From positions 1 through 33,013 of the forward strand of contig CAIYMF010000203.1 of assembly GCA_903927265.1 (NCBI GenBank): a DNA stretch of 33,013 nt, given 5' to 3'. The notes under the pieces are model-generated. The model had not been told where the DNA came from. It saw nothing but the letters and a program-made list of their open reading frames with translations, and searched no databases. This stretch comes from an uncultured bacterium (GTDB lineage Bacteria > Actinomycetota > Actinomycetes > S36-B12 > CAIYMF01). Positions 8,761 through 32,606 of the stretch are shown piece after piece; within the stretch, counting starts at the first letter, position 1, and every line of letters begins with the position of its first letter. The translations under genes and the position numbers were made by a program.

Positions 8761-9837
8761 ATGACCGACTACGAGGAAATTCACCGTGAGCTCGACGCCT
8801 TGCGCGCGGAGGTGACGCGACTACGCCACATCGTTGAGGCGAAGGACCCGACCCCGGCCCCGGCCCCGAACGCCATGGAACCATCCTCACCCACGGCTCC
8901 GAACGAGCCGCTCGAAACAACCACGGGACTCAACCGACGCGGCCTGCTACTCCTCGCCGCCGGTGGCGCCGCCGGTCTGGCGACCGCTGGGTCGCTGGCC
9001 GCAACCGCCACTCCGGCCGCAGCCACAAGCGGGTTCATGCAATACGGCGTCATGAATAACACCGACGCCCTCACCTCTATATCGAGCACGGCACCCAATG
9101 GGGGCTTCCTGGTCAATGACAACGCAGCCAACTCTGGGTCCAACTACGCGACCACCACATTCGGCGTCAACATGGGTGGCCTCTTGGCCCAGAGCATCGG
9201 TCGCGAAGCCATGACCGCCACATCGACAGATGGTCCGGCCCTGCGAACGCGCTCGATCAACGGCCCCGCACTGCGGCTGTTCGCAGATCGCACCGACGTG
9301 CCGACGGTTGCGGCCGACGGGAGTTTCATCGCTGGTGATCTACTCACCGACACCTCGGGCAGGCTCTGGTACTGCACCGCCAGTGGCTCGCCAGGTTCTT
9401 GGCGACTGGTCTCCGGCTATGCATCCGCCGGCACCTTCTGCCCGGTGGTTCCCTTCCGTGCCTACGACTCACGCAAGCCACAGCCGATTCCTGGCCCGCT
9501 AGCCGCCGGAAACAACCGCGTGATTGACGTGTCGAAGTCACGCAACCCCGTGACGGGCGCCGTGATTGCCAACGATGCCATTCCGGTCGGCAGTATGGCC
9601 GTGGCAATCAACCTCACCATCACCGACACGGCGGGAAGCGGCGGTTGGCTCGGGGTGACCACCGCGGTGCAGTTGAACGTGACGACGTCGACCATCAACT
9701 GGACGGCGCCGGGCCAAACCAACGCCAATGGCGCCATCGTGTCGTGCCCCGATCGCCTGATCCGAGTGGTGTGCGGACCAGCAGGCGGCGGGCGCAGTAC
9801 CGACTTCATCGTCGACGTCACCGGGTACTGGCGCTAA
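8761..9837 (+). CDS. Tat-type surface protein with N-terminal coiled coil and VDVTGY C-terminal domain
   Basis: A 358-aa protein; ATG 8761 has AAAGGAG 5 nt upstream. Residues 1-28 form a short coiled coil (EELDALRAEVTRLRHIVEA-like), 29-55 are Pro-rich, and a twin-arginine signal follows (LNRRGLLLLAAGGAAGLATA, RR at 59-60, Ala-rich cleavage region near 88). The exported part is Gly/Thr/Asn-rich, and the C-terminus (about 235-358) is the actinobacterial surface domain with FRAYDSR, TINWTAPGQTNANGAIVS and the closing VDVTGYWR. The cytoplasmic 55-residue extension before the Tat signal is typical of large families of such proteins. Role unknown, probably cell-surface. The antisense extension upstream to 8221 is not real. 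Confidence 0.75.
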   Translation: MTDYEEIHRELDALRAEVTRLRHIVEAKDPTPAPAPNAMEPSSPTAPNEPLETTTGLNRRGLLLLAAGGAAGLATAGSLAATATPAAATSGFMQYGVMNNTDALTSISSTAPNGGFLVNDNAANSGSNYATTTFGVNMGGLLAQSIGREAMTATSTDGPALRTRSINGPALRLFADRTDVPTVAADGSFIAGDLLTDTSGRLWYCTASGSPGSWRLVSGYASAGTFCPVVPFRAYDSRKPQPIPGPLAAGNNRVIDVSKSRNPVTGAVIANDAIPVGSMAVAINLTITDTAGSGGWLGVTTAVQLNVTTSTINWTAPGQTNANGAIVSCPDRLIRVVCGPAGGGRSTDFIVDVTGYWR

Positions 9838-9935
9838 AGATCACCCGTAGTCGATACCCCCGCAAGGACCAAGGGCACTGGAGTAAGGGCCTTGATCAGC
9901 GCATGCTGGAAGTGACGTGAAATGGGGTGTTGGTC

Positions 9936-10862: not shown

Positions 10863-11504
10863 GTGACCGACGCCCCTGACACGTCCTCGAGCTCGACCCG
10901 CCGCATCGACCGCATTGTGTGGATCGACTGCGAAATGACCGGACTCGAGCTTGACCACGATGCTCTCGTTGAAATTGCGTGCGTGGTGACCGATTCTGAG
11001 CTCAATGAGCTCGATGAAGGAATCGACCTCGTCATTCGCACCGACGAACAAACCCTGGCTGGCATGCCCGACATCGTGCGCCAGATGCACACCTCATCCG
11101 GACTCCTCAACGACATTCCCTCGGGTTTGGAATTGTCGGAGGCCGCTGCCCTCGTGCTCGAGTACGTACAAAAGCACGTGCCTGAACCACGTAAGGCACC
11201 ACTCGCTGGTTCGAGCGTGTACGTCGACCGAGGTTTTATCGCGCGTGACATGCCCGAACTTGATGCGCACTTGCACTACCGACTGATCGATGTCTCAACC
11301 ATCAAGGAATTGTCGCGACGCTGGTACCCACGCGCCTACTTCGCCTCACCCAAAAAGAACGGCGGCCACCGAGCGCTCGCTGACATTCTCGAAAGCATTG
11401 CTGAACTGCGGTACTACCGCGCTGCGGTGATGACCCCACCTCCTGGTCTCGACGCCGATGCCCTCGCTGCCATCGCCGCCGACCACACGGTGGCACCGCG
11501 CTGA
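10863..11504 (+). CDS. orn: Oligoribonuclease
   Basis: A 213-aa DEDDh 3'-5' exonuclease that degrades 2-5-nt RNAs, including pGpG, to mononucleotides. All catalytic residues are present: D22 and E24 (VWIDCEMTGL), D122 (VYVDRGFI), H169 (NGGHRALADI) and D174. The family signature KNGGHRALADILESIAELRY is intact. The length exceeds the usual 180-200 aa because of a short N-terminal extension and a C-terminal tail. GTG start, leaderless pattern. First gene of an apparent orn-galM-hydrolase-channel run with 1-nt gaps and overlaps. Confidence 0.95.
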   Translation: MTDAPDTSSSSTRRIDRIVWIDCEMTGLELDHDALVEIACVVTDSELNELDEGIDLVIRTDEQTLAGMPDIVRQMHTSSGLLNDIPSGLELSEAAALVLEYVQKHVPEPRKAPLAGSSVYVDRGFIARDMPELDAHLHYRLIDVSTIKELSRRWYPRAYFASPKKNGGHRALADILESIAELRYYRAAVMTPPPGLDADALAAIAADHTVAPR

Positions 11505-17755: not shown

Positions 17756-17810
17756 CGCCGGTCTACCCCCAATGCTTCCCGATCGGCCACAAGCCTGAGA
17801 GGCTGTGCGC

Positions 17811-19280
17811 ATGGTAAAGATGCACCCGGGTGCGGGACCCCACGATCCTCAGGTAGTCGTACTGTTTGGCGCCACTGGTGACCTCTCTCGTCGCAAGTTG
17901 CTGCCCGGGTTGTTCCACATCACCCAGGAAGACAACGACCTCATTCCAGGTTGTCGCATCGTCGGCGTCTCGCTCGACGACATGACCCGCGAGGAGTTCG
18001 TGCAGTTCACCCACGATGCTGTGCACGAGTTCTACTCACGCGAGCTCGACCACTCCGAATGGGACGAGTTCGACGACTGGCTCGACTACATTCCGGTATC
18101 CGCCGGGCCCGAAGCGTTGGCCGCAGCCGTGGCTCGCGCCGAGACTCAGCTCGGCGAAGGAGTACGGCGCCTGCACTACCTGTCTGTTCCACCGAAGTCG
18201 GCTCTCGACGCCATCACCATGCTGCGCGATGCCAACTTGATCGAGCGCTCACGCGTCATCATGGAAAAGCCATTCGGCACCGATCTTGAATCGGCCGTCA
18301 AACTCAACGAGCAGGTTCACAACATCTTCGCTGAGGATCAGGTCTTCCGCATCGATCACTTCTTGGGCAAAGAGCCAGCGCTCAATATCTTGGCGTTCCG
18401 CTTTGGAAACGGGCTGTTCGAACCGATCTGGAACCGCAACTTCATCAGCCACGTGCAGATCGACGTTCCTGAAACGCTTGGCATTGAGCAGCGTGCGGGC
18501 TTCTACGAGAACACCGGCGCCTACCGCGACATGGTGGTCACTCACCTATTCCAAATCATGGCGTTCATCGCCATGGAGGCACCCACCGCGCTTGAGCCCA
18601 ACGCTATTCGCGAGGAGAAGAACAAGGTCTTTCGAAGCATGCAGATGATTGACCCCAGCGATGTCGTACGTGGGCAATACAGCGGCTACCGCTCGGTCGA
18701 TGGAGTCGACCCTGAGAGCGACACCGAGACGTTCGTAGCACTCAAGGTCAACATCGATAACTGGCGCTGGGCGGGTGTTCCGTTCTTCCTTCGTACCGGG
18801 AAGAGGATGCCTGAGGGTCAGCGCATCGTGTCGATTGCATTCCACGAACCACCGCAGAGCATGTTCCCCGCCAATTCGGGTATCGGCACCCAAGGCCCCG
18901 ACCACCTCACGTTCGACCTCGCTGATTCGGCCAAGATGTCGCTGTCGTTCTACGGAAAGCGCCCTGGCCCTGGCATGCAGCTCGATAAGCAGAGCCTGCA
19001 GTTCGCCATGCACGACACCGGACTTGCCGGTGACGTGTTCGAGGCGTACGAGCGTCTCATCCTCGATGCCATGAAGGGTGACCACACTCTCTTCACCACG
19101 GCGCAAGGTATTGAGCGACTGTGGGAGTTGTCGCAGACGCTGCTCGACAGTCCAACCCCCGTGCGCAAGTACGAGCCGGACTCATGGGGGCCGAACGCGA
19201 TTCACCAGTTGATCGCTCCGCACGCGTGGCGGCTGCCATTCGAACGTGAGTGGCGCGACCCGAACGTCACCGGCGAGTAG
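17811..19280 (+). CDS. zwf: Glucose-6-phosphate 1-dehydrogenase
   Basis: A 489-aa enzyme that oxidises glucose 6-phosphate to 6-phosphogluconolactone with NAD(P). The cofactor motif is GATGDLSRRKL (20-30); the substrate and catalytic signature is RIDHFLGKE (180-188); EKPFG is at about 152-156. Length is normal for the family. ATG 17811 is preferred, with GAGAGG 8 nt upstream; a GTG at 17805 is also in frame. It heads a tight group with hexulose-phosphate synthase (8 nt gap), hexuloisomerase and a PfkB kinase, suggesting a cyclic RuMP role (oxidation of the hexose phosphate formed from formaldehyde). No gnd or pgl gene is in the window. Confidence 0.96.
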   Translation: MVKMHPGAGPHDPQVVVLFGATGDLSRRKLLPGLFHITQEDNDLIPGCRIVGVSLDDMTREEFVQFTHDAVHEFYSRELDHSEWDEFDDWLDYIPVSAGPEALAAAVARAETQLGEGVRRLHYLSVPPKSALDAITMLRDANLIERSRVIMEKPFGTDLESAVKLNEQVHNIFAEDQVFRIDHFLGKEPALNILAFRFGNGLFEPIWNRNFISHVQIDVPETLGIEQRAGFYENTGAYRDMVVTHLFQIMAFIAMEAPTALEPNAIREEKNKVFRSMQMIDPSDVVRGQYSGYRSVDGVDPESDTETFVALKVNIDNWRWAGVPFFLRTGKRMPEGQRIVSIAFHEPPQSMFPANSGIGTQGPDHLTFDLADSAKMSLSFYGKRPGPGMQLDKQSLQFAMHDTGLAGDVFEAYERLILDAMKGDHTLFTTAQGIERLWELSQTLLDSPTPVRKYEPDSWGPNAIHQLIAPHAWRLPFEREWRDPNVTGE

Positions 19281-19288
19281 ACGCGTTC

Positions 19289-19948
19289 ATGCTGCTGCAG
19301 TTGGCGCTCGATGCACCTGAACACTTGGCGGTCTTAGCTCAGGTTGCCGATTTGGTTGACATCGTTGAGGTGGGCACACCGCTGCTCAAACGATTCGGGG
19401 TGAGCGCCATCGCCACTGCCCGTGAACTTACTGACCAAGTGCCCGTATTGGCAGATACGAAGACTGTCGATGGTGGAGCCCTTGAGGCTCACCTCGTGTT
19501 CGGCGCGGGCGCCATGTTCATGACGGTTCTTTCGAGCGCATCCAGCGCCACACAGAACGCCGTCGCACGTGTCGCCGCTGAATACGGCGGCATTGTGGTT
19601 CTCGACACCATCACTGAATCAGGCAAGCACTCACTGCTGCCCGATGACTTCGAGTTTCCTGACGGAATCGCGTACGTCGCCGTGCATTCGCCCACCGACG
19701 TACGCGAGTCGGGTCAACATTCGTCTCACCACATTGCCGCCGTCGCCCAGATGCACGAGCGTGGGCTTCGGGTGTCACTCGCTGGCGGCATTGGTCCGGA
19801 CTCAATGAGCGACGTCATCGGCGTCGCTCCGGAAATCGTTGTGGTCGGAAGCGCCATTACCAGTGCGGCCAACCCGAGGGAGGTGACCCAATGGATTCGG
19901 AGCGCGCTGATCAATCCCGGCCGTGGCTGGCCGTGGGACTCGAACTAA
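19289..19948 (+). CDS. hps: 3-hexulose-6-phosphate synthase
   Basis: A 219-aa protein of the orotidine-monophosphate decarboxylase superfamily. It follows the HPS pattern: LQLALDAPEH at the N-terminus, VDIVEVGTPLLKRFG, the D-x-K-x-x-D catalytic motif in VLADTKTVDGG, the GAGAMFMTVLSSAS strand, VAVHSPTD and the phosphate-binding SLAGGIGPDSM and VVVGSAITSA. HPS condenses formaldehyde with ribulose 5-phosphate; a related role is 3-keto-gulonate-6-phosphate decarboxylase, but the adjacent hexuloisomerase argues for HPS. ATG 19289 is chosen because the family starts right before LQLALD; the longer frame lies inside zwf. Its 3' end overlaps the next gene by 58 nt. Confidence 0.88.
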   Translation: MLLQLALDAPEHLAVLAQVADLVDIVEVGTPLLKRFGVSAIATARELTDQVPVLADTKTVDGGALEAHLVFGAGAMFMTVLSSASSATQNAVARVAAEYGGIVVLDTITESGKHSLLPDDFEFPDGIAYVAVHSPTDVRESGQHSSHHIAAVAQMHERGLRVSLAGGIGPDSMSDVIGVAPEIVVVGSAITSAANPREVTQWIRSALINPGRGWPWDSN

Positions 19949-20439
19949 ACGAAGTACTGCAGCAGGTCGATGGCACAGCATTTACCTCCTTTGCCGACGC
20001 TGCCAGAACCCATTCGGGTCGTTGGTTCTTCACGGGACAAGGACGCTCTGGCCTCTCGGCTCAAATGGGCGCGATGAGACTGATGCATTTGGGCCGAGAG
20101 GTACACGTGCTGGGTGACGCAACATCGCCGTCAGTGCGTGCCGGTGACGCGCTCCTCGTTGTCTCAGGTTCAGGAACCACTCCGGTCAGCATCGGCTTTG
20201 CATCGATCGCCCGCGAACAAGGTGCCCTCGTTTTTCTCGTCACGGCCAGCCCCGAAAGTCCCCTTGCCGCACTGTCAGACCATGTCCTCGTTGCGCCGGT
20301 GACTCAGTCGCATCAATTGATGGGGACCCTGTTCGAACAGTCAGCCCTCGCACTGCTTGATGCCGTCGCCTCTTCCATCGCTGAGCAGGAACCGCAGTCG
20401 CGTGATGGCATGGCTCACCGACACACCAACATGCAGTGA
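19891..20439 (+). CDS. phi: 6-phospho-3-hexuloisomerase
   Basis: A 182-aa SIS-domain protein that converts 3-hexulose 6-phosphate to fructose 6-phosphate. Family features are GRWFFTGQGRSGLSAQM, the LGDATSPSVRAGDALLVVSGSGTT region holding the sugar-phosphate loop, and HQLMGTLFEQSALALLDAV near the end with the conserved LMGTLFE. GGGAGG lies 7 nt before ATG 19891, so this start, 58 nt inside hps, is well supported. Together with hps it completes the two fixed steps of the RuMP pathway. Confidence 0.9.
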   Translation: MDSERADQSRPWLAVGLELNEVLQQVDGTAFTSFADAARTHSGRWFFTGQGRSGLSAQMGAMRLMHLGREVHVLGDATSPSVRAGDALLVVSGSGTTPVSIGFASIAREQGALVFLVTASPESPLAALSDHVLVAPVTQSHQLMGTLFEQSALALLDAVASSIAEQEPQSRDGMAHRHTNMQ

Positions 20440-23202: not shown

Positions 23203-23463
23203 TCACCCGATGGGCCAGATGTACTGCCACCAATAAGGCTGGTCGTGCGGCTGCCACTGCGCCACCACTGCAAGTTCTGCATCGGAAAGTTGCCAGGTCG
23301 TCGCACGCGCCTTGTACCGAATGAGGTCTCCGACGGTGACGTCGAAGCCCGCCTCGGCGGCCAACTCTGCGGCGGTCGCGGCATCGCTCACGCGGAGCCT
23401 CTGCTGCAGAGCGCGATCGCCACTCACCTTCAGCAGGAATGCGTTCAACTGATCGGCAGACAC
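23203..23463 (-). CDS. Nif11-type small protein with aromatic tail (possible RiPP precursor)
   Basis: An 86-aa protein starting at GTG 23463 (GGGAAGG 9 nt upstream; a TTG at 23472 overlaps the esterase stop). Residues 1-50 follow the Nif11 pattern (MSADQLNAFLLKVSGDRAL, AAELAAEAGFDVTVGDL), and LSDAELAVVA (59-68) matches the leader end of Nif11-like (NHLP) precursors, where a GG usually follows. Here GG is missing, and the last 18 residues are rich in Trp, Tyr, Gln and Pro (QWQPHDQPYWWQYIWPIG). Nif11 domains are leader regions for modified peptides, but free-standing Nif11 proteins also exist. It is directly downstream of the esterase gene. Confidence 0.75.
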   Translation of the reverse strand: MSADQLNAFLLKVSGDRALQQRLRVSDAATAAELAAEAGFDVTVGDLIRYKARATTWQLSDAELAVVAQWQPHDQPYWWQYIWPIG

Positions 23464-23468
23464 GTGCG

Positions 23469-24200
23469 TCAACCTTCCCGTACCTGGGCAAACAACCAGT
23501 CGGCAACCTCAGGCGAGTAGTACGCGATGTCCCAGACGTCGTGTCCGAAACCTTCGAGTTCGGTGTATTTCGCGGGTGAACCCTGCGCGGCGAGTGCCGC
23601 CATCACGACGCGCGTATCGGAAACAGGGAACACCGGATCAACATCTCCGTGGAAGTTCCAGAGCGGCAGATGCCGCAGTCTCGTCGCCAACTGCTGTGCC
23701 GGATCACCATCAGCGTCGGGTACGACCGGGTCTGGGTCTGCAAGGAGACGTCCGTCGTCGAGCCGCGGCCGAACCACGCCTGCCACGATCAATGCGGCAG
23801 CGAACAGATGCGGGTGACGGTACAGCGCATGCCAGGCGGCCTTGGCTCCGGTAGACACCCCCGTCACGTAAATCCGGTTCTGGTCAACGCTGAAGTCTTC
23901 CTGAACCTGCTGTAAGACGAGCAGCGCGAAGTCAACATCATGTGACAGCCACACCGGCTGGTACGAAGGAACTTGTGGAAACACGACCAGACCCGGGTAG
24001 CGAGCGGCGTTGCGGCGAATTGCGCTTCCGAGTTGGTATTCGGTGGGAGCCAAAGCGTCTCGGCCACCCTCCCCTGCCCCGTGTAGAAACAGGATTGTCG
24101 GCCATGCGCGCTGTGCGTCGTAGTCGCTTGGCACATACACCTGGTACAGCCGCGTCTCGCCCGCTTGCTGCAGCGAGCGGGTAAGGAAGCCAGTGTCCAT
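23469..24200 (-). CDS. Esterase-type alpha/beta hydrolase
   Basis: A 243-aa protein resembling the LpqC/feruloyl-esterase and S9-like group. TILFLHGAGEGG forms the oxyanion region, the nucleophile elbow is GVSTGAKAAW (Ser in G-x-S-x-G), the likely acid is in NFHGDVDPVFPVSDTR, and the His is in GFGHDVWD. No signal peptide. ATG 24200 lies exactly 6 nt after TAGGCT (leaderless pattern). The gene directly precedes the Nif11-type gene and is divergent from the methyltransferase, which puts it at the edge of the putative peptide locus, where it could act as a hydrolase or acyl-transfer enzyme. Confidence 0.85.
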   Translation of the reverse strand: MDTGFLTRSLQQAGETRLYQVYVPSDYDAQRAWPTILFLHGAGEGGRDALAPTEYQLGSAIRRNAARYPGLVVFPQVPSYQPVWLSHDVDFALLVLQQVQEDFSVDQNRIYVTGVSTGAKAAWHALYRHPHLFAAALIVAGVVRPRLDDGRLLADPDPVVPDADGDPAQQLATRLRHLPLWNFHGDVDPVFPVSDTRVVMAALAAQGSPAKYTELEGFGHDVWDIAYYSPEVADWLFAQVREG

Positions 24201-24206
24201 GTGCGC

Positions 24207-24216
24207 AGCCTAGAAT
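24207..24216. promoter_or_regulatory. Overlapping divergent -10 elements between esterase and methyltransferase
   Basis: On the minus strand TAGGCT (24212-24207) sits 6 nt before esterase ATG 24200. On the plus strand TAGAAT (24211-24216) points to the methyltransferase with a 5' leader of about 50 nt. The two hexamers share two bases, so the two promoters could compete. Confidence 0.45.
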
Positions 24217-24272
24217 CTTCACGCACCTGACTCGACACCGACCGACGCCCCACAACCGAGAGAGTGATCCTC

Positions 24273-24971
24273 ATGCCTGCCGGCGCTGCTGATCTCGACG
24301 CCCTCGGTAACGACTACCGCGTGGCGTTGATGTCGATGTACGCCAACGAAGGCCAACTCGGTGCCAGCGGCCAACGACACGACATCGACGACTCGACACG
24401 AATTTCAGTCGATGAAGGTTTAGCGCTCTACTCACTGTGCGTTGAGTCAGACGTGACCACAACCCTTGAAGTGGGCCTCGCTTACGGGTTCAGCACGGTG
24501 TACCTGCTGGCAGCGCTTGAACACAATGGTGGTGGCACGCACGTGGCCATCGATCCGTACCAAGCGACCGACTGGAACGGCATCGGCATCACCACTGCGC
24601 GACAACTCGTTGCGCAGAGCACCACACTCCCCGACGAGTCGATGATGCTCATCGAGGAGATGTCACACGCGGCTCTAGTCGATCTTGAACGCATCGGCGC
24701 GAGCTTCGGTCTGAGCTTCATCGATGGCTACCACCGCTTTGACGACGTACTCGTTGACTTCACTCTGGCCGCTCGGATGTGCCCGATTGGCGGCGCGATC
24801 GTGCTGCACGACACGTGGCTCGACAGCATCGCCGCAGTTGCGTCATTCCTGCGCAGCAACCGCATCGACTTCGTCGAAATCGATACCGAATGTGAGAACT
24901 TGTTTGCCATGCGACGAGTGACTGACGATGAACGCGACTGGCGACATTTCGTCGACTTTCCTCTTCGTTAA
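24273..24971 (+). CDS. Class I SAM-dependent methyltransferase (Methyltransf_24-like)
   Basis: A 232-aa protein from ATG 24273 (GTG 24264 also in frame; GAGAG upstream). The Rossmann methyltransferase motifs are LEVGLAYGFSTVYLL (motif I), HVAIDPYQ (acidic end of strand 2), LSFIDGYHRFDDVLVD (motif IV) and GGAIVLHDTW (motif post-IV). These match small O-methyltransferase-type enzymes often found in glycan or natural-product clusters. Acceptor unknown; by position it may modify a sugar or a peptide of the neighbouring locus. It converges with the GT4-like gene, with a 7-nt gap. Confidence 0.85.
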   Translation: MPAGAADLDALGNDYRVALMSMYANEGQLGASGQRHDIDDSTRISVDEGLALYSLCVESDVTTTLEVGLAYGFSTVYLLAALEHNGGGTHVAIDPYQATDWNGIGITTARQLVAQSTTLPDESMMLIEEMSHAALVDLERIGASFGLSFIDGYHRFDDVLVDFTLAARMCPIGGAIVLHDTWLDSIAAVASFLRSNRIDFVEIDTECENLFAMRRVTDDERDWRHFVDFPLR

Positions 24972-24978
24972 CCGTTCT

Positions 24979-26661
24979 TCACGATTCGGGGAGCCACTCA
25001 ACGACTCCTGCTTTGGCCAGCCACATCACGGTCATGCGAACAAACGCGCGTCGGCCCTGCGGGAACGACTGCAGAAGTTCGCTCACGGTCAGCGTTCCCG
25101 CGTTACCGAGCAATGCGACGACCTCCGCCGCTTCGCTCTCGTTTCCGCGCAGCCCTGGGAACATCGCGTCGAGTTCGACTAAGGGGTTGGGTAACAGTAA
25201 GTCGGAGCCTCCGTTGGCGCCCGCAGCAAGTTGTAGCGCCAGATCGTCGGTAAGAACTTGAGTGGGTAACGGTCGAAAGTCAACGAATGGGTCGTTTCGC
25301 AATGGATTCATTCGGTGTGCCGAGACGACCGGCACCGCATGCGCACGACGCTGTGCAAGGTCAGCAAACAGTTCAGCGTACTGCGCGGCGACCACGGGCC
25401 ACGCATACATCTCACGCGCACGCTGGCGGGCCGCCGCTCCCATCGTGGTGCGCAATTCTGGCGAGGCATTGAGGCGACTAAGCGCGGCCGCTGCGCTCGG
25501 TACATTTACGGCCGTGTGTGCCGCAACGGCTCCGCCATATTGCGAGTAGTCAACGAGATCAAGCAACTGAGCCAGCGCCAACGTCTCACCGAGCGCACCT
25601 CCTGGCCCTCCCAGCGTTGGTATCAGGAAGCCATCAACCTCATCGCGGACGATCGACCGGTATCCGTCCCAATCGCTGACGACCAGCGGCAGTCCGGCGG
25701 CCATCGCTTCGGTGAGTGCCTGCCCGAAGGTTTCCAAGATCGTGTCTGACAGCAACAGGAAGATGTCAGCGGCGGCCCAACACTGCGCGACCACCGTTGC
25801 ATCGTTGCCGTCAAGAAATGTGACGCGTACCGAAGGTGCGTACGCGCGTGCGGCCGCTTCGAACAGGGGTCGATCTCGCTCTGGGTCTGGGAACCAACCT
25901 GTGAGCACGAAGTGGGTTGTCACTTCCGACTGGTGGTGAGCCGCTTCGACCGCTTTGAACATTGCTTGCGGGAAAGCTTTGTCGTAGTACGAGAGTCGGC
26001 CTAAGAAATAGACCATCACATCGTCCTCGGCAATACCGAGTGACGCTCGCAATCGCGCTCGCGCGTCAGCGTCGTTGGACTGCACTTCAATCTCAGCGAC
26101 ATTCGTGCCGAATGGAATCACCGGTAACTGCGGTCGAGGAAGAGTGGCGGCCCCTAGCCGCTCCTGAAGGTAGTTCTCCCAGCGATCGAAGGCATCTGCG
26201 ACCGTGTCGCGCAGTGTAGGCGATGAGCAGATCATGGCGTCCCACTCATACAGAGGAGCGAGGGCCGACTGCATCATTTGCTCGCGATGTGTCGCTGACG
26301 CGTACGCGAAAATGGTGCCGACGATGCTGTAGTCGATGTCTCGCCCCGCGTGACGCCGCACCCACGCGGGTTCTGCAAGGTAGGGCTGGCCCGAAAGTTG
26401 AATTCCGGAACGCACTGCGGCCGATGTCGACAGCGCTGACCCTGAACTAATCACGACTGTGTCGTCATCGAGGCGAAGTTCACGCGCTAACTGCTCGGAA
26501 TCCGGTGGCGTGCGACTTTGAAAATGCAACCGCCGATAGCCGCCGTGACGGGCGAGTGCTCGATAGGTGCCGGCATTCGCCACGAACCGTCCGTAGGGGT
26601 TGGTGGGCGGCTCTACTTGTCCTCCTGGCAGGTAGATGACCAAATCCTCGGACGGCGTCAT
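24979..26661 (-). CDS. GT4-like glycosyltransferase with C-terminal winged-helix-like extension
   Basis: A 560-aa GT-B-fold enzyme. After a divergent N-terminal domain, the C-terminal GT domain shows VMVYFLGRLSYYDKAF (about 235-250), CWAAADIFLLLSDT and the donor-binding E-x7-E in LETFGQALTEAMAAGLPLVV, SDWDGYR. The last 110 residues (about 451-560) are not part of a normal GT4 enzyme. They end in an alpha-helix/turn/helix pattern (EVVALLGNAGTLTVSELLQS, then MTVMWLAKAGVVEWL) that resembles a winged helix or a PqqD-like leader-binding domain. Donor and acceptor unknown. GATGCT lies 6 nt before the ATG, a near-match to the leaderless pattern. Divergent from the next glycosyltransferase-like gene. 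Confidence 0.8.
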   Translation of the reverse strand: MTPSEDLVIYLPGGQVEPPTNPYGRFVANAGTYRALARHGGYRRLHFQSRTPPDSEQLARELRLDDDTVVISSGSALSTSAAVRSGIQLSGQPYLAEPAWVRRHAGRDIDYSIVGTIFAYASATHREQMMQSALAPLYEWDAMICSSPTLRDTVADAFDRWENYLQERLGAATLPRPQLPVIPFGTNVAEIEVQSNDADARARLRASLGIAEDDVMVYFLGRLSYYDKAFPQAMFKAVEAAHHQSEVTTHFVLTGWFPDPERDRPLFEAAARAYAPSVRVTFLDGNDATVVAQCWAAADIFLLLSDTILETFGQALTEAMAAGLPLVVSDWDGYRSIVRDEVDGFLIPTLGGPGGALGETLALAQLLDLVDYSQYGGAVAAHTAVNVPSAAAALSRLNASPELRTTMGAAARQRAREMYAWPVVAAQYAELFADLAQRRAHAVPVVSAHRMNPLRNDPFVDFRPLPTQVLTDDLALQLAAGANGGSDLLLPNPLVELDAMFPGLRGNESEAAEVVALLGNAGTLTVSELLQSFPQGRRAFVRMTVMWLAKAGVVEWLPES

Positions 26662-26712
26662 GGCGCTAGCATCGCACGGCCTGCGAGTTATTCGATGCTC
26701 GCGGCAGGGTCA

Positions 26713-26718
26713 TAGAAT
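26713..26718 (+). promoter_or_regulatory. Candidate -10 for the GT25-like gene
   Basis: TAGAAT, identical to the hexamer before the methyltransferase, lies 38 nt before ATG 26757 and would give a leader of about 30 nt containing the Shine-Dalgarno. Confidence 0.4.
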
Positions 26719-26756
26719 TGCGACTCACACCACGACGAGTGCGGGAGGCGGGGTCG

Positions 26757-27467
26757 ATGCTGATCCAACCCGTCGTTCTCACGATGCCTCGACGAGACCC
26801 GCAACACGTCGACACCATCCGTTCAGCATTTACAGGGGCTCGGGGATTCGCCGAGCCACTCGTCTACCGCGATGCACTCGGCGTGGGCGCTGCCGTTGCG
26901 ACTCGCGAGGCGATTGCACTAGCCGGGGCCGGGGGCCTGCACGTGCTCTTCCTCGAAGATGACGTGCTCGTCGACCACGAGGCACCAGCGCGTATCGCAG
27001 CAACCTCGTTCCCATCCAACGTTGCGGCAATCTCGTTCTGCGACATGCGTGAGGTTGCCGAGTTCTCGCCGAGTGGACTGTACGTTCTCAACCCCATGGG
27101 AAGCGACGGACGAGGCTGGTGGGGCAATCAAGCGCTGCTCCTTCACCGCGACATCGTGACGATGTGCGCGAGAGAAGATTGGTTTGGCCCTGAGATCGAA
27201 TCGTCGCTTGGCATTCATGTGCACAAAGAAACTTACGGCGACAACGGACGCAACTGCAGTGACATCCGACTGTCTCTCCTCATCGCACAGCACGGCGGCG
27301 AGCGAAGCGAGTACGCCGTGCACGTACCGAGTCTCTTTCAACATGTGGGGTACGAGTCGGTGTGCTTCCCAGGCCGAGGCCTAGGTGAGCGCGAGACTCG
27401 TAATTGGATTGCCGATCGGCGACGCTTTAACCTCGACGCGATTGTCGGAGCCGAACTGACTAGTTGA
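26757..27467 (+). CDS. GT25/GT-A-like putative glycosyltransferase
   Basis: A 236-aa protein from ATG 26757 (GGGAGG 10 nt or less upstream). The earlier TTG 26718 overlaps the -10 element and is unlikely. The central LHVLFLEDDVLVDHEAP (about 61-77) carries the acidic metal-binding E-D-D triplet of GT25-like and other GT-A enzymes; GWWGNQALLLHRDIV and HVGYESVCFPG follow, as in acceptor-facing loops. Likely nucleotide-sugar dependent glycosyl transfer; acceptor unknown. The 3' end overlaps the convergent neighbour by 8 nt. Confidence 0.65.
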   Translation: MLIQPVVLTMPRRDPQHVDTIRSAFTGARGFAEPLVYRDALGVGAAVATREAIALAGAGGLHVLFLEDDVLVDHEAPARIAATSFPSNVAAISFCDMREVAEFSPSGLYVLNPMGSDGRGWWGNQALLLHRDIVTMCAREDWFGPEIESSLGIHVHKETYGDNGRNCSDIRLSLLIAQHGGERSEYAVHVPSLFQHVGYESVCFPGRGLGERETRNWIADRRRFNLDAIVGAELTS

Positions 27468-28251
27468 CCGATTCGGGATCGTGGCAAATTCCGTTGATCG
27501 ACAATCCCTTGAAGCTACAATCCTCGATGCGCTCGTCAATAACACGATGCACGACGTCGCGCCATTGCTCGTCGGTCATCAGGTGGAATCGCGTCAGGTT
27601 ATTGCGCTCGACGCAGATGCGCAGCAATTGCTCGCACGACCAGCCGGGGATGTGCTCCCAGATTCGGCCGTTGTACTCATGAATGCGGTTCACTATCGTC
27701 CACGAACGATCGAGTAACTGTGTGTCGATGAGGAAGTCAGTGGCCCCGACATCGATGAGGTAGAACGTGGTCTGCGGAAAGAAGAAGTCAGTCGTAAAGG
27801 GGGCGATGTCGAACTCGTTCTGGCGTATCGCGCTGTATGACAGAGCGTTGAGAAAGTAGAACGATGCAGGTTCGATTGGAATGTGCAGCATTTCCTCGTC
27901 GAGGTAGACGTCGTTGGCACTCTTGCAGAGCCAGCCGATGCCATTGCCCTTGCAGTAGTCAAAGAGCATGTTGTCGAGATCGCTCGTACCGATCGAGTGC
28001 CCACGATTGAACGATGAATCCAGAATCACGCATTCAGGAAAGTAGCGCCGCCAGAGTTGAGTGTTGGCCCGCATCAATTCCGCGGTGTCTTTGCCACCAA
28101 AGTTCGTGGCCACCACGACCCGTCGAAAACGATGCAGAATCGGCAGGTTGTGAACGATAGACCGTTCGAGGGCTTCTACGTCACGCCGATCGGCGATGTA
28201 GCCGGCGGTTCCGTACACGCTGCGCGAGACGACATCACCCAAGCGATTCAT
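27460..28251 (-). CDS. Putative GT-A-fold glycosyltransferase downstream of the GG-leader peptides
   Basis: A 263-aa protein (ATG 28251; GTG 28257 also in frame; no clear Shine-Dalgarno). RRVVVATNFGGKD (43-55) is a nucleotide-binding-like first strand, and NRGHSIGTSDLDNMLFDYCK leads to GWLCKSANDVYLDEE, where N-D at 113-114 would take the place of the DxD motif. The rest is rich in aromatic residues (TDFFFPQTTFYLIDV). Several Cys lie near the C-terminus (CEQLLRICVE, DCSF, ICHD). It starts 20 nt after peptide B, in the same direction, so it is the prime candidate for a peptide-modifying enzyme. The family call is moderate. Confidence 0.6.
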   Translation of the reverse strand: MNRLGDVVSRSVYGTAGYIADRRDVEALERSIVHNLPILHRFRRVVVATNFGGKDTAELMRANTQLWRRYFPECVILDSSFNRGHSIGTSDLDNMLFDYCKGNGIGWLCKSANDVYLDEEMLHIPIEPASFYFLNALSYSAIRQNEFDIAPFTTDFFFPQTTFYLIDVGATDFLIDTQLLDRSWTIVNRIHEYNGRIWEHIPGWSCEQLLRICVERNNLTRFHLMTDEQWRDVVHRVIDERIEDCSFKGLSINGICHDPESVN

Positions 28252-28271
28252 GGCCACGCGAAGACGCTGAT

Positions 28272-28400
28272 TTATGCTTCGCCTTTGATTTTGAGAGTAG
28301 AAGAACCGAAACCGCCGATCACGTCATTCAACTCGTCCTCACTCAGTTCATCCGAGGGTTGAGGTGCAGCATCTTCGGATGCGACCGGCTTTTTTGTCAT
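28272..28400 (-). CDS. GG-leader precursor peptide B (42 aa)
   Basis: A tiny gene (ATG 28400 to TAA 28272), with AAAGGA 7 nt upstream. Residues 1-30 form an acidic leader ending DELSEDELNDVIGG, the L-S-x-x-E-L-x-x-V-I-G-G double-glycine motif cut by C39-type peptidases in bacteriocins and other RiPPs. Residues 31-42 are the putative core FGSSTLKIKGEA: no Cys, but two Ser, one Thr and two Lys. It is a clear paralogue of peptide A (same leader length, same GG position). Too short for most gene callers. Coding status rests on the paralogue, the motif and the Shine-Dalgarno. Confidence 0.78.
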   Translation of the reverse strand: MTKKPVASEDAAPQPSDELSEDELNDVIGGFGSSTLKIKGEA

Positions 28401-28459
28401 GACGGATCCTTTACTTGTTTCAGGGCGAACTCTTTAGGAGGTGAAGCCTCGAAGAGCGA

Positions 28460-28591
28460 CTAGCCCGCTTCGCCAACGGTGTGGCGGCCGTGAGCGCCAA
28501 CGCCCCCGATGACGGCGTCTAGTTCGGCATCGCTGAGTTCGGCTGCCTCACTTGGCATCTCCTCATCACGGGGTGCTTCTTTCTCAGTCAT
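28460..28591 (-). CDS. GG-leader precursor peptide A (43 aa)
   Basis: A tiny gene (ATG 28591 to TAG 28460), with GAGAGG 7 nt upstream. The 30-residue leader ends AAELSDAELDAVIGG, a textbook double-glycine leader motif. The core (31-43) is VGAHGRHTVGEAG: no Cys, one Thr, two His, one Arg. It lies 59 nt upstream of peptide B on the same strand. The two leaders are similar at the start (MT-K) and at the GG motif, while the cores share only the Gly-rich start and a terminal GEA, as expected for precursor paralogues. Confidence 0.8.
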   Translation of the reverse strand: MTEKEAPRDEEMPSEAAELSDAELDAVIGGVGAHGRHTVGEAG

Positions 28592-28634
28592 CACGTGACC
28601 TCTCAGACGGAACCTACGGCTGGCAACGACTCTC

Positions 28635-28663
28635 ACTGTAACAACAGGGACAACCAGCGTCAG
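28635..28663 (-). promoter_or_regulatory. Candidate promoter of the precursor peptide operon
   Basis: On the minus strand CTGACG (-35-like, 28663-28658), a 17-nt spacer and TACAGT (-10, 28640-28635) lie in the 80-nt gap between the cupin stop and peptide A. The expected leader of about 36 nt includes the GAGAGG site. Confidence 0.4.
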
Positions 28664-28671
28664 GTGCAGAC

Positions 28672-29178
28672 TCAGGAACCGAAAAGAGATTCGGGAAGTG
28701 CCGGCGGTGGTCCGACAATGTCGATGTCGTGATCCGCAGCCGCTGACATTAAGGCACCCATGTCAAACTCCCACGTAGCAGGCACTTCACCATTGACCGG
28801 AATACCGGCGGCCTGGACAAATCCAGCGAACCCAGCCGGCGCTGTCACGCTGATCAATCGAGCGGTCGGGCTGGTCACACCGAAAGCATGCGGCTGATCA
28901 GGCGGCAAGTACACGGCTCCACCCGATGCGAGCGACACACGCTCATCTCCGGCCCACGCGAGGATGCTGCCCTGCAGCACGTAGAAGATCTCTGCCTCAC
29001 CATGGTGAATGTGCATCGGCGTGACATCGCCTTGCTCACCCCATTGGTCAAGCAACGCAATCGAACCTTGAGTTTGCGAGGCATCGAGCACGAGGTCGAA
29101 CGTCGTCTTTCCTACCCACAGCAGCCGACGGCGATCCTGCGCATGCGATACGCCTACCCCGGATGGAAGAATCGACAT
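28672..29178 (-). CDS. Cupin-domain protein
   Basis: A 168-aa single-domain cupin starting at ATG 29178 (AGAGGA 7 nt upstream; the longer frame to 29214 has no such site). Cupin motif 1 is PMHIHHGEAEIFYVLQG with metal ligands H56, H58 and E63; motif 2 is AVYLPPDQPHAFGV with H98. Such proteins are metal-dependent dioxygenases, isomerases or sensors; no specific reaction can be assigned. It lies upstream of the two precursor peptides on the same strand and may be part of their operon or just a neighbour. Confidence 0.85.
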   Translation of the reverse strand: MSILPSGVGVSHAQDRRRLLWVGKTTFDLVLDASQTQGSIALLDQWGEQGDVTPMHIHHGEAEIFYVLQGSILAWAGDERVSLASGGAVYLPPDQPHAFGVTSPTARLISVTAPAGFAGFVQAAGIPVNGEVPATWEFDMGALMSAAADHDIDIVGPPPALPESLFGS

Positions 29179-29271
29179 GTCGCATTCCTCTGCAGTTGAT
29201 GCGCCGCATCTCATGGGTCGAGCGACTGCGCAGCGACCGTAACAGGAATGAAAACGCTCACGTTGTCTTGC

Positions 29272-29304
29272 TAGTCCACTCGGGTGTAGCCCCCAAGTGG
29301 ACTA
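29272..29304 (-). terminator. Thirteen-base-pair hairpin after the beta-propeller gene
   Basis: Read on the minus strand, TAGTCCACTTGGG (from the TAG stop at 29304) pairs with CCCGAGTGGACTA (ending 29272) around a 7-nt loop, with one G-U wobble that would be a C-A mismatch on the other strand. This favours a role in the minus-strand RNA, separating the secreted protein gene from the cupin. No U-tract. Confidence 0.6.
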
Positions 29305-31038
29305 CGACTGCGGAGGAAGCGGCGGCAACTCGACAGGCTGAGGCAACGTCGCGTAGTCAGTGGAACACATGGTCGCCGATGCGGGCGACACCGACTGCGT
29401 AGTTGAGCGGGAACACGACAGCGGCAAGTAGATGTTCAGCGTGCCATCGATGTTCATGGTGTAGACACGGCCCGCGTAGCCCGGCATGGGGAACCACGCC
29501 AAATCAGAGGGCCCGTTGACCGCCGACTGCGCCACTGTGGCACCGGTAGCCGCATTCGCCCACAAGACGCTCTCACGCCAGCCATTGTCGAACAGATCGT
29601 CGACGGTGAAGCCGGTGGGATCGATGTACTGAGATATCAAGACGCGGTTCTTTGCCGGGCCCATCGTGGCCAAGTAGTCGGAGGTGCGCCAGTCAGGCCG
29701 GCTCCACAGCACCTTCATCGTTCCGGTCGCCTGATCGAGGTGAACACCGAAGACACCCCCCATGATGAGGTCCTGCATATAGATCATGCTGTTCTCGGGG
29801 TCGGTTGAGAAACTCGAGGGCGCTTCACTGCTGCCGCCGGCCGGGAGTGACACCCCCCACGGGCAGATGCGGTGCATATCGCTGGCGTCGGTCTGGCTCA
29901 CCGCCACCGCGCAGACGTACTTCGAGGTCGACGTGATCGCGTTGGAGTTGAAGATGACCCACTTACCGATCAGCACCGGCCCGTCACCGGGCCCCTGGCC
30001 ATCAAGCAGGTAGTTGGGTGCCCATGTCGGGTCCTGTGTCAGCGTGCGTGCTTTCGGATCCCAGATAATGCGCAGCCCTTGAGTAGCACCCGCGAGATAG
30101 ACGTAGGTCTTCTTACCGTGCGGAACCAAGATGGGTCGCGCGGGCACTGCCTGGCCAAGATTGATCTTGGCGATGTTCGTCAAAGTCACAGGATCAACCG
30201 CAACGAAGGTCGTGAACGGCTGTGGTAGGCCGGTGGCTGCGATGCAGTCCGACATCGCCTTGCTGCCCTGAATCGTGCAGCCAGGTGACCGATTCTGTGT
30301 CTTGAGCAAAATCGTGCCGCGAGCATCGGGAGCCACCGCGAACCCGTCGAAGTTCGCATCTTGCGGTTGGCCGTCAAGTACGGGCTGTTGCCCCCACACC
30401 GTGATCGTCCCGGTCGTGGGGTCGAGTTTGTACACTCGCGGGCCGATGGCCACAGCGACAGAACCATCCTTCACCACGGCCATACTTCCCGGAATCACCC
30501 ACTGGCCGTCCAGCATCGGAAGGTGTCTGCGCCAGATCTCCTTACCGGTCGCGGGGTCGAACCGGGAGATATAGGGACCTTCGGTATACGAGGGCATGGG
30601 AGACCAAGGCGCTCCACCGAAGAGGAACGCAGCGTTGGGACCACCAAACGTCACAATCTGAATTTCACCCGGGTACGACTGTGTGCTCGTGAACTGCGCG
30701 ACTTGGTTCTTACCCTTCATGGTGCCAGTGAAGGTGGCGCACGGCTGCACTCCGCTGTGGATCGCATCGGTCACCTCGGGCGCGCCGATTGCCGCCGCGT
30801 AGTTCGTGAAGTTGTTAGCTGGATTCTTCGCATACGAGCGCATGCAGGCGACCTCGTGCGGGATCGCCGAAGGCACGCCCTGGCCCGCCGACGGAAGGGA
30901 GTGCTCTCGTGCCTCATGCGGAGCTTCATGTGCCTGAGAGGCGCCGGCTCCGAGTCCCACTGATATCAACGAGACGACAGCGACCGCGAGGGTGGTACCA
31001 ATGACTCGCGCCGTCACCGTGTGCCGAGCGGTAGTCAT
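29302..31038 (-). CDS. Secreted PQQ-like beta-propeller-type protein
   Basis: A 578-aa protein with a Sec signal peptide from ATG 31038 (basic start, hydrophobic core about 12-33, cleavage after S-Q-A 34-36). A frame to 31098 would bury the signal, so ATG 31038 is preferred, though its Shine-Dalgarno is weak. A His-rich stretch (HEAPHEAREH) follows the cleavage site. The body has repeated strand-turn units such as ISRFDPATGKEIWRRHL, YKLDPTTGTITVWG and VHLDQATGTMKVLW, like blades of PQQ/WD-type propellers, with scattered Cys pairs. No anchor motif is seen, so it is probably released. Role unknown. Confidence 0.75.
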   Translation of the reverse strand: MTTARHTVTARVIGTTLAVAVVSLISVGLGAGASQAHEAPHEAREHSLPSAGQGVPSAIPHEVACMRSYAKNPANNFTNYAAAIGAPEVTDAIHSGVQPCATFTGTMKGKNQVAQFTSTQSYPGEIQIVTFGGPNAAFLFGGAPWSPMPSYTEGPYISRFDPATGKEIWRRHLPMLDGQWVIPGSMAVVKDGSVAVAIGPRVYKLDPTTGTITVWGQQPVLDGQPQDANFDGFAVAPDARGTILLKTQNRSPGCTIQGSKAMSDCIAATGLPQPFTTFVAVDPVTLTNIAKINLGQAVPARPILVPHGKKTYVYLAGATQGLRIIWDPKARTLTQDPTWAPNYLLDGQGPGDGPVLIGKWVIFNSNAITSTSKYVCAVAVSQTDASDMHRICPWGVSLPAGGSSEAPSSFSTDPENSMIYMQDLIMGGVFGVHLDQATGTMKVLWSRPDWRTSDYLATMGPAKNRVLISQYIDPTGFTVDDLFDNGWRESVLWANAATGATVAQSAVNGPSDLAWFPMPGYAGRVYTMNIDGTLNIYLPLSCSRSTTQSVSPASATMCSTDYATLPQPVELPPLPPQS

Positions 31039-31175
31039 TTCCCAACGGAAGCACCTCGCTTGCTCAGCGGCTACCGTGCTAGCACGGTCGTTCACCACGT
31101 CGACCGGCGAACCGTCACATGTTCAGGCGCACGGCAGATGACGCCATAGAGGCCATCACGCAGACAGGGAGCATC

Positions 31176-31652: not shown

Positions 31653-32285
31653 TTACGCAGCAGCCAGCGTCGCCAATCGGAAACCCGTGTCGTCATCGGC
31701 ATAGAACGGGGCACCACCCATTGGCCCGTAGTCGCGGCGAACCGCCTTGTTCAGCGGCGTGATACCCGGCCCCCATGACCCACCTCGCACTATGCGGTTG
31801 GGGCCACTGGTGGGGTCAGGGTAGGCCGCACCCGTCCACTCCCACAGCGATCCACCCTGATCGAAGGTGCCGTAGTGGCTTGTCGATCCGGCATACGAAC
31901 CAACCGGTGTCAAGACGCCGCCGTCGCCGCCCTTGTAGACGTTCTGGAAGTTGGCGGCAGGTGCCTGCGCACCGTCGGACACCAAGGCAATGCGCGGCGG
32001 CTTGTCACTTCGCGTGGGGTAGTTCCAGTATTTGCTGTCACCGGACTTCTCCGGGTCGTAATACGCGGCCTTGTACCACTCGTCCTCGGTCGGAATCCAG
32101 AATCGTGCATCGGCATTGCGCTCGACGGATCCGGCTTCCTGGAAGTCGATCAAGGTGTAGGCACCAGTTTCTGTGCCACCACTCCCCCGTCCGTTGTGCA
32201 TCCAGTTGGCAAGTCGGGCGGCGTCGAACCACGTGACCCAGGCGATGGGACGATCTTCGGGTTGAGGCCAGACAGAAGAATCCGT
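31653..32285 (-). pseudogene. Truncated FGE/SUMF1-domain (formylglycine-generating-enzyme-like) protein
   Basis: About 210 codons of an FGE-sulfatase domain remain. The frame opens just after an in-frame TGA (32288-32286) and reads RPIAWVTWFDAARLANWMHN, then FWIPTEDEWYKAAYYDP, YGTFDQGGSLWEWTGAAYPD, IVRGGSWGPG and DTGFRLATL, typical of secreted SUMF1-domain proteins. The N-terminal part (signal peptide and first third of the domain) is missing. An internal ATG at 32201 exists but would start in the middle of the domain. I treat it as a broken gene; an assembly join or sequencing frameshift is the alternative. Confidence 0.7.
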
Positions 32286-32330
32286 TCAACCGGGAATCCT
32301 GAACAGATGGGCCGTGTCCACCGCTGGCCC

Positions 32331-32606
32331 CTAGTTCGTCGCTGCTGCCAACGCTGCGGCGACCAACGCATCTCCGGTCTCACGCGTTGAACGCGTCATA
32401 CCCTTGCGGCTGACAAGGTCGGCTACAGCACCTTCCTCGACCCAACGTGCGGCATCCGGTTCGCCCACGTGGTTAAGCAACATTGCCAGTGACAGCACGG
32501 CCGCGGTCGGGTCAGCCTTTCCTTGCCCTGCGATGTCTGGGGCCGACCCGTGTACCGGCTCAAACATGCTCGGGTTCTCCCGGCTGGTGGAGTCGCTGCC
32601 GAGCAC
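32331..32606 (-). pseudogene. leuB: C-terminal remnant of 3-isopropylmalate dehydrogenase
   Basis: About 90 residues match only the C-terminal quarter of Leu[21 protein letters not shown], then [19 protein letters not shown] and [16 protein letters not shown]. The family is about 335-360 aa, so the dehydrogenase core and active-site Arg/Tyr/Lys residues are missing. Homology begins near 32580; upstream of it (VLGSDSTSR) there is no family sequence and the toxin promoter follows on the other strand. It is a fragment without enzyme activity. A full leuB copy is expected elsewhere. Confidence 0.8.

Follow-up and report, generated by a model that had tools for sequence, protein, structure and literature searches.

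A conserved actinobacterial gene cluster of double-glycine leader peptides and glycosyltransferase-like enzymes that looks like an undescribed RiPP-like class

Background

The Nif11 and NHLP families with their NHLM exporter (Haft et al. 2010, PMC2887384; TIGR03794/03796/03797/03798) have leaders that end in LS(D/E)xEL..V.GG, and their precursors and exporters are often encoded apart. The locus described here shares this leader ending, includes a TIGR03798 member and belongs to a genome with an NHLM-type trio. However, the leaders of its GG precursors measure 27-43 aa, compared with 70-83 aa in N11P/NHLP, its cores are only 3-18 aa long and lack Cys, and lanthionine and azoline enzymes are missing from its modification genes, which are GT-like. 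Its Nif11 protein also differs from N11P in having neither the GG nor a hypervariable core.

Glycocins of the SunS/ThuS/ThgS type (PMC12457901) likewise combine a GG-type leader, a glycosyltransferase (GT) gene beside the precursor and export by a C39 PCAT. Unlike them, the locus has very short cores without Cys, disulfides or a conserved acceptor Ser/Thr/Cys, several GTs of apparently other families, and an exporter that lies outside the cluster. A parallel for chemistry centred on the C-terminus of a small ribosomal product is offered by pearlins and LysW-type amino-group carrier peptides (PMC9303977), but the island encodes no PEARL (small LanB-like) or other amide ligase, and its leader is, by sequence, C39-cleavable. 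In LysW, the residue used is a C-terminal Glu. Class II double-glycine bacteriocins have the same leader motif, whereas the cores found here are too short for that class and are accompanied by dedicated modification genes. The author of a preliminary description knew of no class with this gene set, and our search of the open-access literature found no published description of it either.

Gene content and limits of the island

The window, i.e. the whole stretch of 33,013 nucleotides that was analysed, contains the following features:

23203..28690, strand., whole island; block of which a sister species has only a C-terminal Nif11 scar
23203..23472, strand -, Nif11-leader protein, 89 aa; TIGR03798 46.7 bits (cut-off 32.3), GG replaced by QW, tail PYWWQxxW
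23469..24200, strand -, alpha/beta hydrolase (esterase or S9-like), 243 aa; Pfam Esterase 4e-8, Peptidase_S9 3.1e-8, nucleophile GVSTG
24264..24971, strand +, class I SAM methyltransferase (Methyltransf_24), 235 aa; Pfam 1.9e-18
24979..26661, strand -, GT4-family glycosyltransferase, 560 aa; Pfam Glycos_transf_1 (PF00534) 2.5e-19, homologues in other clusters
26757..27467, strand +, GT25-like enzyme, 236 aa; ATG start within TTG ORF 26718, invariant LFLEDD and GWWGNQALL motifs
27460..28257, strand -, GT-A-like enzyme of an unnamed family, 265 aa; conserved NRGHSIGTSDLDN motif and conserved Asp at a DxD-like site
28272..28400, strand -, predicted precursor P1, 42 aa; leader ...LSEDELNDVIGG, core FGSSTLKIKGEA; same basis as P2
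28460..28591, strand -, predicted precursor P2, 43 aa; leader ...LSDAELDAVIGG, core VGAHGRHTVGEAG; ORF with ribosome site, C39 leader positions, homologues in related loci

The limits were derived from the sister species L089, whose flanks are 91-97% identical to the window at the DNA level. A DNA comparison showed that L089 lacks the block from ~23337 to 28690; 280 bp of unrelated sequence lie at the junction, and a 43-aa Nif11 remnant is left. This loss, together with the Nif11 scar, fixes the limits of the island and excludes the cupin gene. Both the cupin gene and a PQQ-repeat gene were rejected as members, because the other clusters lack them and the sister still has them next to the deletion. 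The gene list given earlier was correct for the GT4 enzyme, the Methyltransf_24 protein, the esterase/S9-type hydrolase and the Nif11 leader protein (all recognised by Pfam/NCBIfam models), while the cupin was also recognised as such but lies outside the unit. The two genes that had been called GT-A-like and GT25-like are present; these names derive only from motifs and weak fold evidence. A search for known RNA elements found none, and no promoter or terminator signals exceeded chance.

Precursor peptides

P1 and P2 have the 30-residue leaders ending in ...VIGG that had been reported, and a Shine-Dalgarno-like sequence lies upstream of both. An alternative start for P2, GTG 28636, is located further upstream; ATG 28591 has the better ribosome site. 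C39 domains read the leader positions GG at -2/-1, L-12, (E-8), L-7 and V-4 (PMC6363468), and the P2 leader matches L-12, E-8, L-7, V-4 and GG. Including the relatives in other clusters, which contain one to three precursors each, L-12, V-4 and GG are found in 9/9 leaders, position -7 is L or M, and E occurs at -8 in four. By sequence, all nine leaders match the C39 type to which those of P1 and P2 had been assigned, and the predicted precursors are candidates for C39 cleavage and export.

All nine cores end in Glu-Ala followed by at most one residue (EA or EAx). These two residues at the C-terminal end are the only invariant ones in the core, the shortest of which is EAV, and the ending was not found in any of 25 other GG peptides. 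Cys is missing from all nine cores, which excludes lanthionine, sactionine and S-linked glycocin chemistry, as had been concluded for P1 and P2. The precursors have a dN/dS of ~0.2-0.3 and are thus under purifying selection.

Enzymes and the Nif11 protein

The GT-A-like gene has a GTG start that lies 14 bp past P1 and so follows the precursor immediately, as described before. In six-member alignments, its homologues are 48-66% identical, with an invariant Asp at the DxD-like position, and those of the GT25-like protein are 62-68% identical, with an invariant LEDD motif. Searches of Pfam, NCBIfam and PDB sequences gave no credible match for either protein, even when a profile was used as the query. 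The GT-A-like protein had no sequence match to the SunS/ThuS family, and profile-profile comparison gave no sign of a relationship between the two island families. AlphaFold models were built from three-sequence alignments; they are poor past residue ~90, so that the fold matches are only suggestive. The low-confidence model of the GT-A-like protein (mean pLDDT 50) matched almost exclusively GT-A glycosyltransferases or nucleotidyltransferases (best Z 9.1), including the glycocin enzymes ThuS (Z 7.1, rmsd 3.6, 133 aligned) and SunS (Z 6.4), and that of the GT25-like protein (mean pLDDT 52) reached a Z of at most 5.7, with no GT family standing out. Glycosyl transfer by these two enzymes is putative.

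In the GT4 enzyme, the E-x7-E motif of the GT-B C-terminal domain reads ETFGQALTE, and a C-terminal extension ends in RxFVRMTxxWLAKAG. The methyltransferase is present in all clusters and adjoins the precursor in the related genome G511. The hydrolase was found in 6/6 carrier genomes, directly beside the Nif11 gene wherever that side was assembled. Homologues of the Nif11 protein (TIGR03798 scores 46.6 and 50.4) have QW or AW at the GG site and a tail that is conserved instead of hypervariable, being invariant in the four clusters compared. Judged by these residues, the Nif11 protein is not a C39 substrate.

Distribution and export

The same gene set, in shuffled order, occurs in six genomes of one actinobacterial order, and the GT-A-like and GT25-like proteins are found in exactly the same genomes of that order. 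GG precursors adjoin the enzymes in every cluster (in G403, just the start of the precursor is visible at a contig end) and accompany them through at least three rearranged arrangements. GT homologues occurring mostly without GG peptides, which the preliminary description had named as an argument against its proposal, were thus not what we observed. Because homologous precursors adjoin the same enzymes in other genomes, the pairing is not due to chance, and the GG peptides and GT-like genes are one conserved cluster, a real unit.

The GT-A-like protein was absent from 395 other genomes drawn across the phylum. Its relatives were not detected in the viral contigs, plasmids and phages searched, nor were those of the GT25-like protein in the plasmids and phages searched. 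Acidobacterial matches from the first scan (L006, L007) turned out to be fortuitous similarities within SDR dehydrogenases. One query sequence was used to scan the 85,000-species collection, and more diverged relatives may exist elsewhere. We regard the cluster as a new, narrowly distributed RiPP-like family.

That export would depend on genes elsewhere had been predicted rightly. The window genome (G000) contains a C39 exporter with an intact ECGAAS motif, for which NHLM ABC1 is the best model, with a score below its curated cut-off; the candidate NHLM-type trio lies on contig C99, unlinked to the island. C39 exporters are present in 5/6 carriers and in 38/160 other genomes (Fisher p = 0.005, calculated on related and partly incomplete genomes). 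G511 has a linked exporter: on a short contig without assembled GT genes, an EA precursor comes immediately after an NHLM ABC2-like gene, and the methyltransferase is next. The L044 cluster retains a relic of an NHLM ABC2-like gene.

Proposed pathway and alternatives

The explanation that we prefer, and to which we give an even chance, is a RiPP-like cluster in which a core ending in Glu-Ala is modified with a sugar-based, methylated group before C39 cleavage and export. Which enzymes act on these peptides, with which sugar, at which site, in what order and for what biological role, we infer as follows. The C39-type leader of the one to three precursors, whose very short cores have Glu-Ala at the extreme C-terminus as their only conserved feature, would be recognised inside the cell during modification. 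The GT-A-like, GT25-like and GT4 enzymes, the SAM methyltransferase and the hydrolase would build or trim the peptide-bound group, the likeliest place being on or beside the conserved Glu or the C-terminus. After cleavage behind GG, the product would leave through a C39 ABC exporter of the NHLM type, the genes of which usually lie elsewhere. With no cleavable GG and a fixed PYWWQxxW tail, the Nif11 protein may be a dedicated accessory or a second substrate. Several observations count against this explanation, namely the missing sequence match of the GT-A-like and GT25-like proteins to known families, their poor structure models, the unlinked exporter in the window genome and the absence of assembled GT genes in G511. 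To our knowledge, RiPPs also offer no precedent for a glycosylated Glu carboxylate. The conserved EA could also be a recognition tag instead of the modified site.

In a more specific version, which is possible but rather unlikely, the peptides would be carriers on which sugars are assembled as a glycosyl ester or amide of the invariant Glu or the C-terminal carboxylate, tuned by the methyltransferase and hydrolase. If the carriers were real, the peptide-tethered glycan chemistry of this RiPP class would have no known counterpart. For the preferred explanation in general, a Glu-Ala end that is the modification site would mean new peptide-linked chemistry, and one that is only a tag would still leave a clear case, outside the glycocins, of glycosyltransferases that travel together with GG-leader peptides. 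Either way, the island looks like a self-contained, undescribed RiPP-like class of environmental actinobacteria. Pfam has no model for two of its enzyme families, and its precursors, the shortest with just EAV behind the GG, are small enough for a few mutants to pin down the acceptor group.

O-glycosylation of Ser/Thr, with the GTs adding sugar to the core as in a Cys-free O-glycocin, had been put forward as the simplest reading. The cores of P1, P2, L005, L042c and L043 do contain Ser/Thr, and the fold similarity of the GT-A-like model to ThuS and SunS would agree with it. However, the positions of these residues are not conserved, and since 4/9 cores have no Ser/Thr at all, two of them in the L042 cluster (LVYEAG, EAV), and only the C-terminal Glu-Ala is invariant, this proposal is weakened and no longer supported as the simplest reading, and we consider it unlikely. 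The modified ribosomal peptides of this cluster seem to form an undescribed class, probably other than a Ser/Thr-glycosylated one.

It is similarly improbable that the GTs make a cell-surface or storage glycan while the neighbouring GG peptides do something else, e.g. act as a secreted signal. Polysaccharide pathways commonly contain GT4 enzymes and methyltransferases, two families of the island, and the unlinked exporter of the window genome would also fit. On the other hand, the precursors move with the enzymes through the rearrangements, the EA ending is specific to the island precursors, and no flippase, polymerase or sugar-nucleotide gene was found within the island.

Quite improbable is a role of the Nif11 protein as the acceptor, in which its tail would be glycosylated on Tyr/Trp in a glycogenin-like manner; the GTs would then extend it and the methyltransferase would cap it, the GG peptides being secondary. 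The invariance of the tail in all four clusters compared, the QW or AW that would prevent C39 cleavage and the directly adjoining hydrolase gene are in line with this, but it does not account for several variable GG precursors lying next to the enzymes, nor for the EA signature, and Nif11 leaders are usually precursor modules (PMC2887384). Finally, we consider it very unlikely that the peptides are double-glycine bacteriocins or signals that carry methyl groups at most, with the other genes being incidental. Although the short G511 contig has just the exporter, precursor and methyltransferase, 3-6 residues are not enough for the core of a classical class II bacteriocin, and the GTs are strictly co-inherited in six genomes.

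Gene cluster and its limits

As the preliminary description stated, the window holds two tandem genes for peptides of 42 and 43 aa with double-glycine (GG) leaders, beside glycosyltransferase-like, methyltransferase, hydrolase and Nif11 genes. This was borne out by the open reading frames, ribosome-binding sequences, and Pfam and TIGR03798 matches:

28460-28591, minus: precursor P2, 43 aa, ribosome-binding sequence upstream
28272-28400, minus: precursor P1, 42 aa, ribosome-binding sequence upstream
27460-28257: probable GT-A-like gene, next after P1, starting 14 bp beyond it
26757-27467, plus: GT25-like gene
24979-26661, minus: GT4 gene (Pfam, 2.5e-19)
24264-24971, plus: Methyltransf_24 gene (Pfam, 1.9e-18)
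23469-24200, minus: alpha/beta hydrolase gene
23203-23472, minus: Nif11-leader protein gene (TIGR03798, 46.7 bits; cut-off 32.3)

The limits of this island are marked by a natural deletion. The close relative G406 shares the flanking sequence at 91-97% DNA identity, lacks window positions 23337-28690 and has ~280 bp in their place; all that it keeps of the island is a stretch of 43 residues from the C-terminus of the Nif11 protein. The cupin (28672-29214), formerly counted as part of the set, and the PQQ-repeat gene (29302-31098) therefore lie outside the island. Both were rejected as members, being present in G406 at 97% identity and having no homologues in other cluster loci.

When the genomes of ~85,000 species were scanned for the GT-A-like protein, two close relatives appeared, both from actinobacterial MAGs: one from Lake Pavin (L004, 67%) and one from a WHONDRS sample (L005, 62%). 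The gene has the same neighbours there as in the window, and in L005 it is directly preceded by a GG peptide gene. Through its near-identical sister G406, the window's genome falls in the same order as these two. When 165 genomes of that order were searched with a three-sequence GT-A-like profile, the gene was found in 5, not counting the window's genome. The profile matched none of 395 other genomes sampled from the phylum, and the single sequence none of 394 others of the class. GT25-like profile matches came from exactly the same 5 genomes. Three further loci (L042, L043 and L044) each hold GT-A-like, GT25-like, methyltransferase, hydrolase, Nif11 and GG peptide genes, in differing order and orientation. 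L044 is a decayed copy (8195-7935, 10870-11500), with the GT4 down to 87 matching residues and the precursor frameshifted. In the relative G403 the cluster is divided over contigs, with the hydrolase, Nif11 and precursor start at the end of contig C436. The same neighbourhood, which the preliminary description proposed to look for in other actinobacterial genomes, is thus found with GG peptide and enzyme genes together in L005, L042, L043 and L044. We are confident that the island is a genuine conserved cluster.

Precursor peptides

Nine intact related precursors were compared: P1, P2, one from L005, three in tandem from L042, one from L043, one from the relative G511 and an orphan from G403. 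The P1 and P2 leaders are 30 aa each and end in LS(D/E)xEL..VIGG. L-12, V-4 and GG are present in 9/9 precursors, and position -7 is always L or M; these leader positions are read by the C39 domain (PMC6363468). For precursor pairs, dN/dS is ~0.2-0.3 (0.19/0.70, 0.11/0.53, 0.24/0.76).

The cores are 3-18 residues long: FGSSTLKIKGEA, VGAHGRHTVGEAG, LGTSNMGILGEAGLGEAI, LVYEAG, EAV, LSLGEA, RSTSSDPMVGEAV, AELPIAPVGEAV and KLKGEA. All nine terminate in EA or EAx. Among the 34 distinct GG tails in all fetched loci this end occurs in these 9 and in 0 of the 25 others, a contrast somewhat inflated because some of the loci were retrieved with a profile that included it. Glycosylation had been proposed to fall on Ser or Thr of the core. 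A conserved acceptor of this kind is unsupported, because four of the nine cores contain neither residue and because Glu is the sole possible acceptor side chain in EAV and AELPIAPVGEAV.

Other GG peptides were also seen. The orphan precursor (G403:C91, locus L075 ~9740-9883; core KLKGEA) has no cluster enzymes within the 11 kb fetched around it. The window's genome encodes two further tandem GG-leader peptides (G000:C256, locus L024 9009-9164 and 9190-9387, plus), whose cores AVVFGGTTGGKLPGTMSGTTGGTF and IAGGPGVTGTTLDRAAAGADNVAPGWH are Gly/Thr-rich and whose adjoining genes include no obvious modification enzyme. Lanthipeptide-like loci are present in the same order: in G471:C275 several Cys-containing GG peptides follow the C-terminal part of what is probably a LanM-like enzyme.

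Enzymes and proposed modification

The GT4 carries an E-x7-E, as expected. For the GT-A-like and GT25-like proteins, searches of Pfam, NCBIfam and PDB sequences yielded nothing credible, whether with single sequences or, for PDB, with profiles. LFLEDD is invariant in the GT25-like family, an assignment that is motif-based; members of the GT-A-like family share NRGHSIGTSDLDN and an Asp conserved at a DxD-like site. Three-sequence AlphaFold models are weak for both, with pLDDT 50 for the GT-A-like and 52 for the GT25-like protein. The matches of the former are nearly all GT-A glycosyltransferases or nucleotidyltransferases, including LH3 (Z 9.1, rmsd 3.6 over 141) and the glycocin enzymes ThuS (Z 7.1) and SunS (Z 6.4), and its GT-A-like assignment is taken as probable; the latter gave mixed Rossmann-fold matches with Z at most 5.7.

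The GG peptides are likely substrates of the cluster enzymes, and on balance we expect at least one of these enzymes to add a sugar to the peptide. As to site, sugar and step order, we infer that the island enzymes would modify the short precursors inside the cell, and that the modified precursor would then be cleaved after GG and exported. Being the sole constant of the core, the C-terminal Glu-Ala would be the best candidate for the site of modification or attachment; we propose Glu or the C-terminus tentatively. Carrier peptides of pearlin and LysW-type systems bear the growing product on their C-terminal end (PMC9303977); unlike those systems, the island lacks amide-forming enzymes of their kind.

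The Nif11 protein has QW or AW in place of GG, and its tail QPYWWQxxW is invariant in 4/4 aligned members. By sequence it is therefore no C39 substrate, and it also differs from typical Nif11 precursors, whose cores are hypervariable. Wherever the Nif11 and hydrolase genes of a cluster are both assembled, they lie immediately next to each other.

Export

The window contains no exporter, and export was expected to rely on genes elsewhere. Candidates are indeed found at G000:C99, where the one C39 ABC protein of the window's genome lies with a second ABC and an HlyD-like gene. The best models for the ABC pair, NHLM ABC1 (776 bits) and ABC2 (537 bits), score far above all others, though short of the curated cut-offs; for the HlyD-like protein, TIGR03794 is a weak match. 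C39 exporters occur in 5 of the 6 carriers and, among the order's 160 other genomes, in 38 (Fisher p = 0.005, the genomes not being independent). In G511 an NHLM ABC2-like gene is directly followed by the EA-ending precursor and a methyltransferase homologue, and in L044 an 87-aa relic of this ABC gene, 84% identical to the one in G511, lies between the Nif11 and precursor genes. The exporter was therefore a cluster member in part of the lineage. It is known of these systems that precursors can be encoded far from the genes for their modification and export (PMC2887384).

Other genes in the window

At 17805-20439 (plus), consecutive genes encode G6PD, a hexulose-phosphate synthase-like member of the HUMPS/OMP-decarboxylase family and a hexulose isomerase-like SIS protein; together they resemble a ribulose-monophosphate module, here in an actinobacterium. 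Fragments lie at 31653-32606 (minus). One is an FGE-sulfatase domain that is short at its N-terminus; the other is 91 aa from the C-terminal part of an isocitrate/isopropylmalate dehydrogenase, and the sister locus in G406 has a copy of this second fragment at 99% identity.
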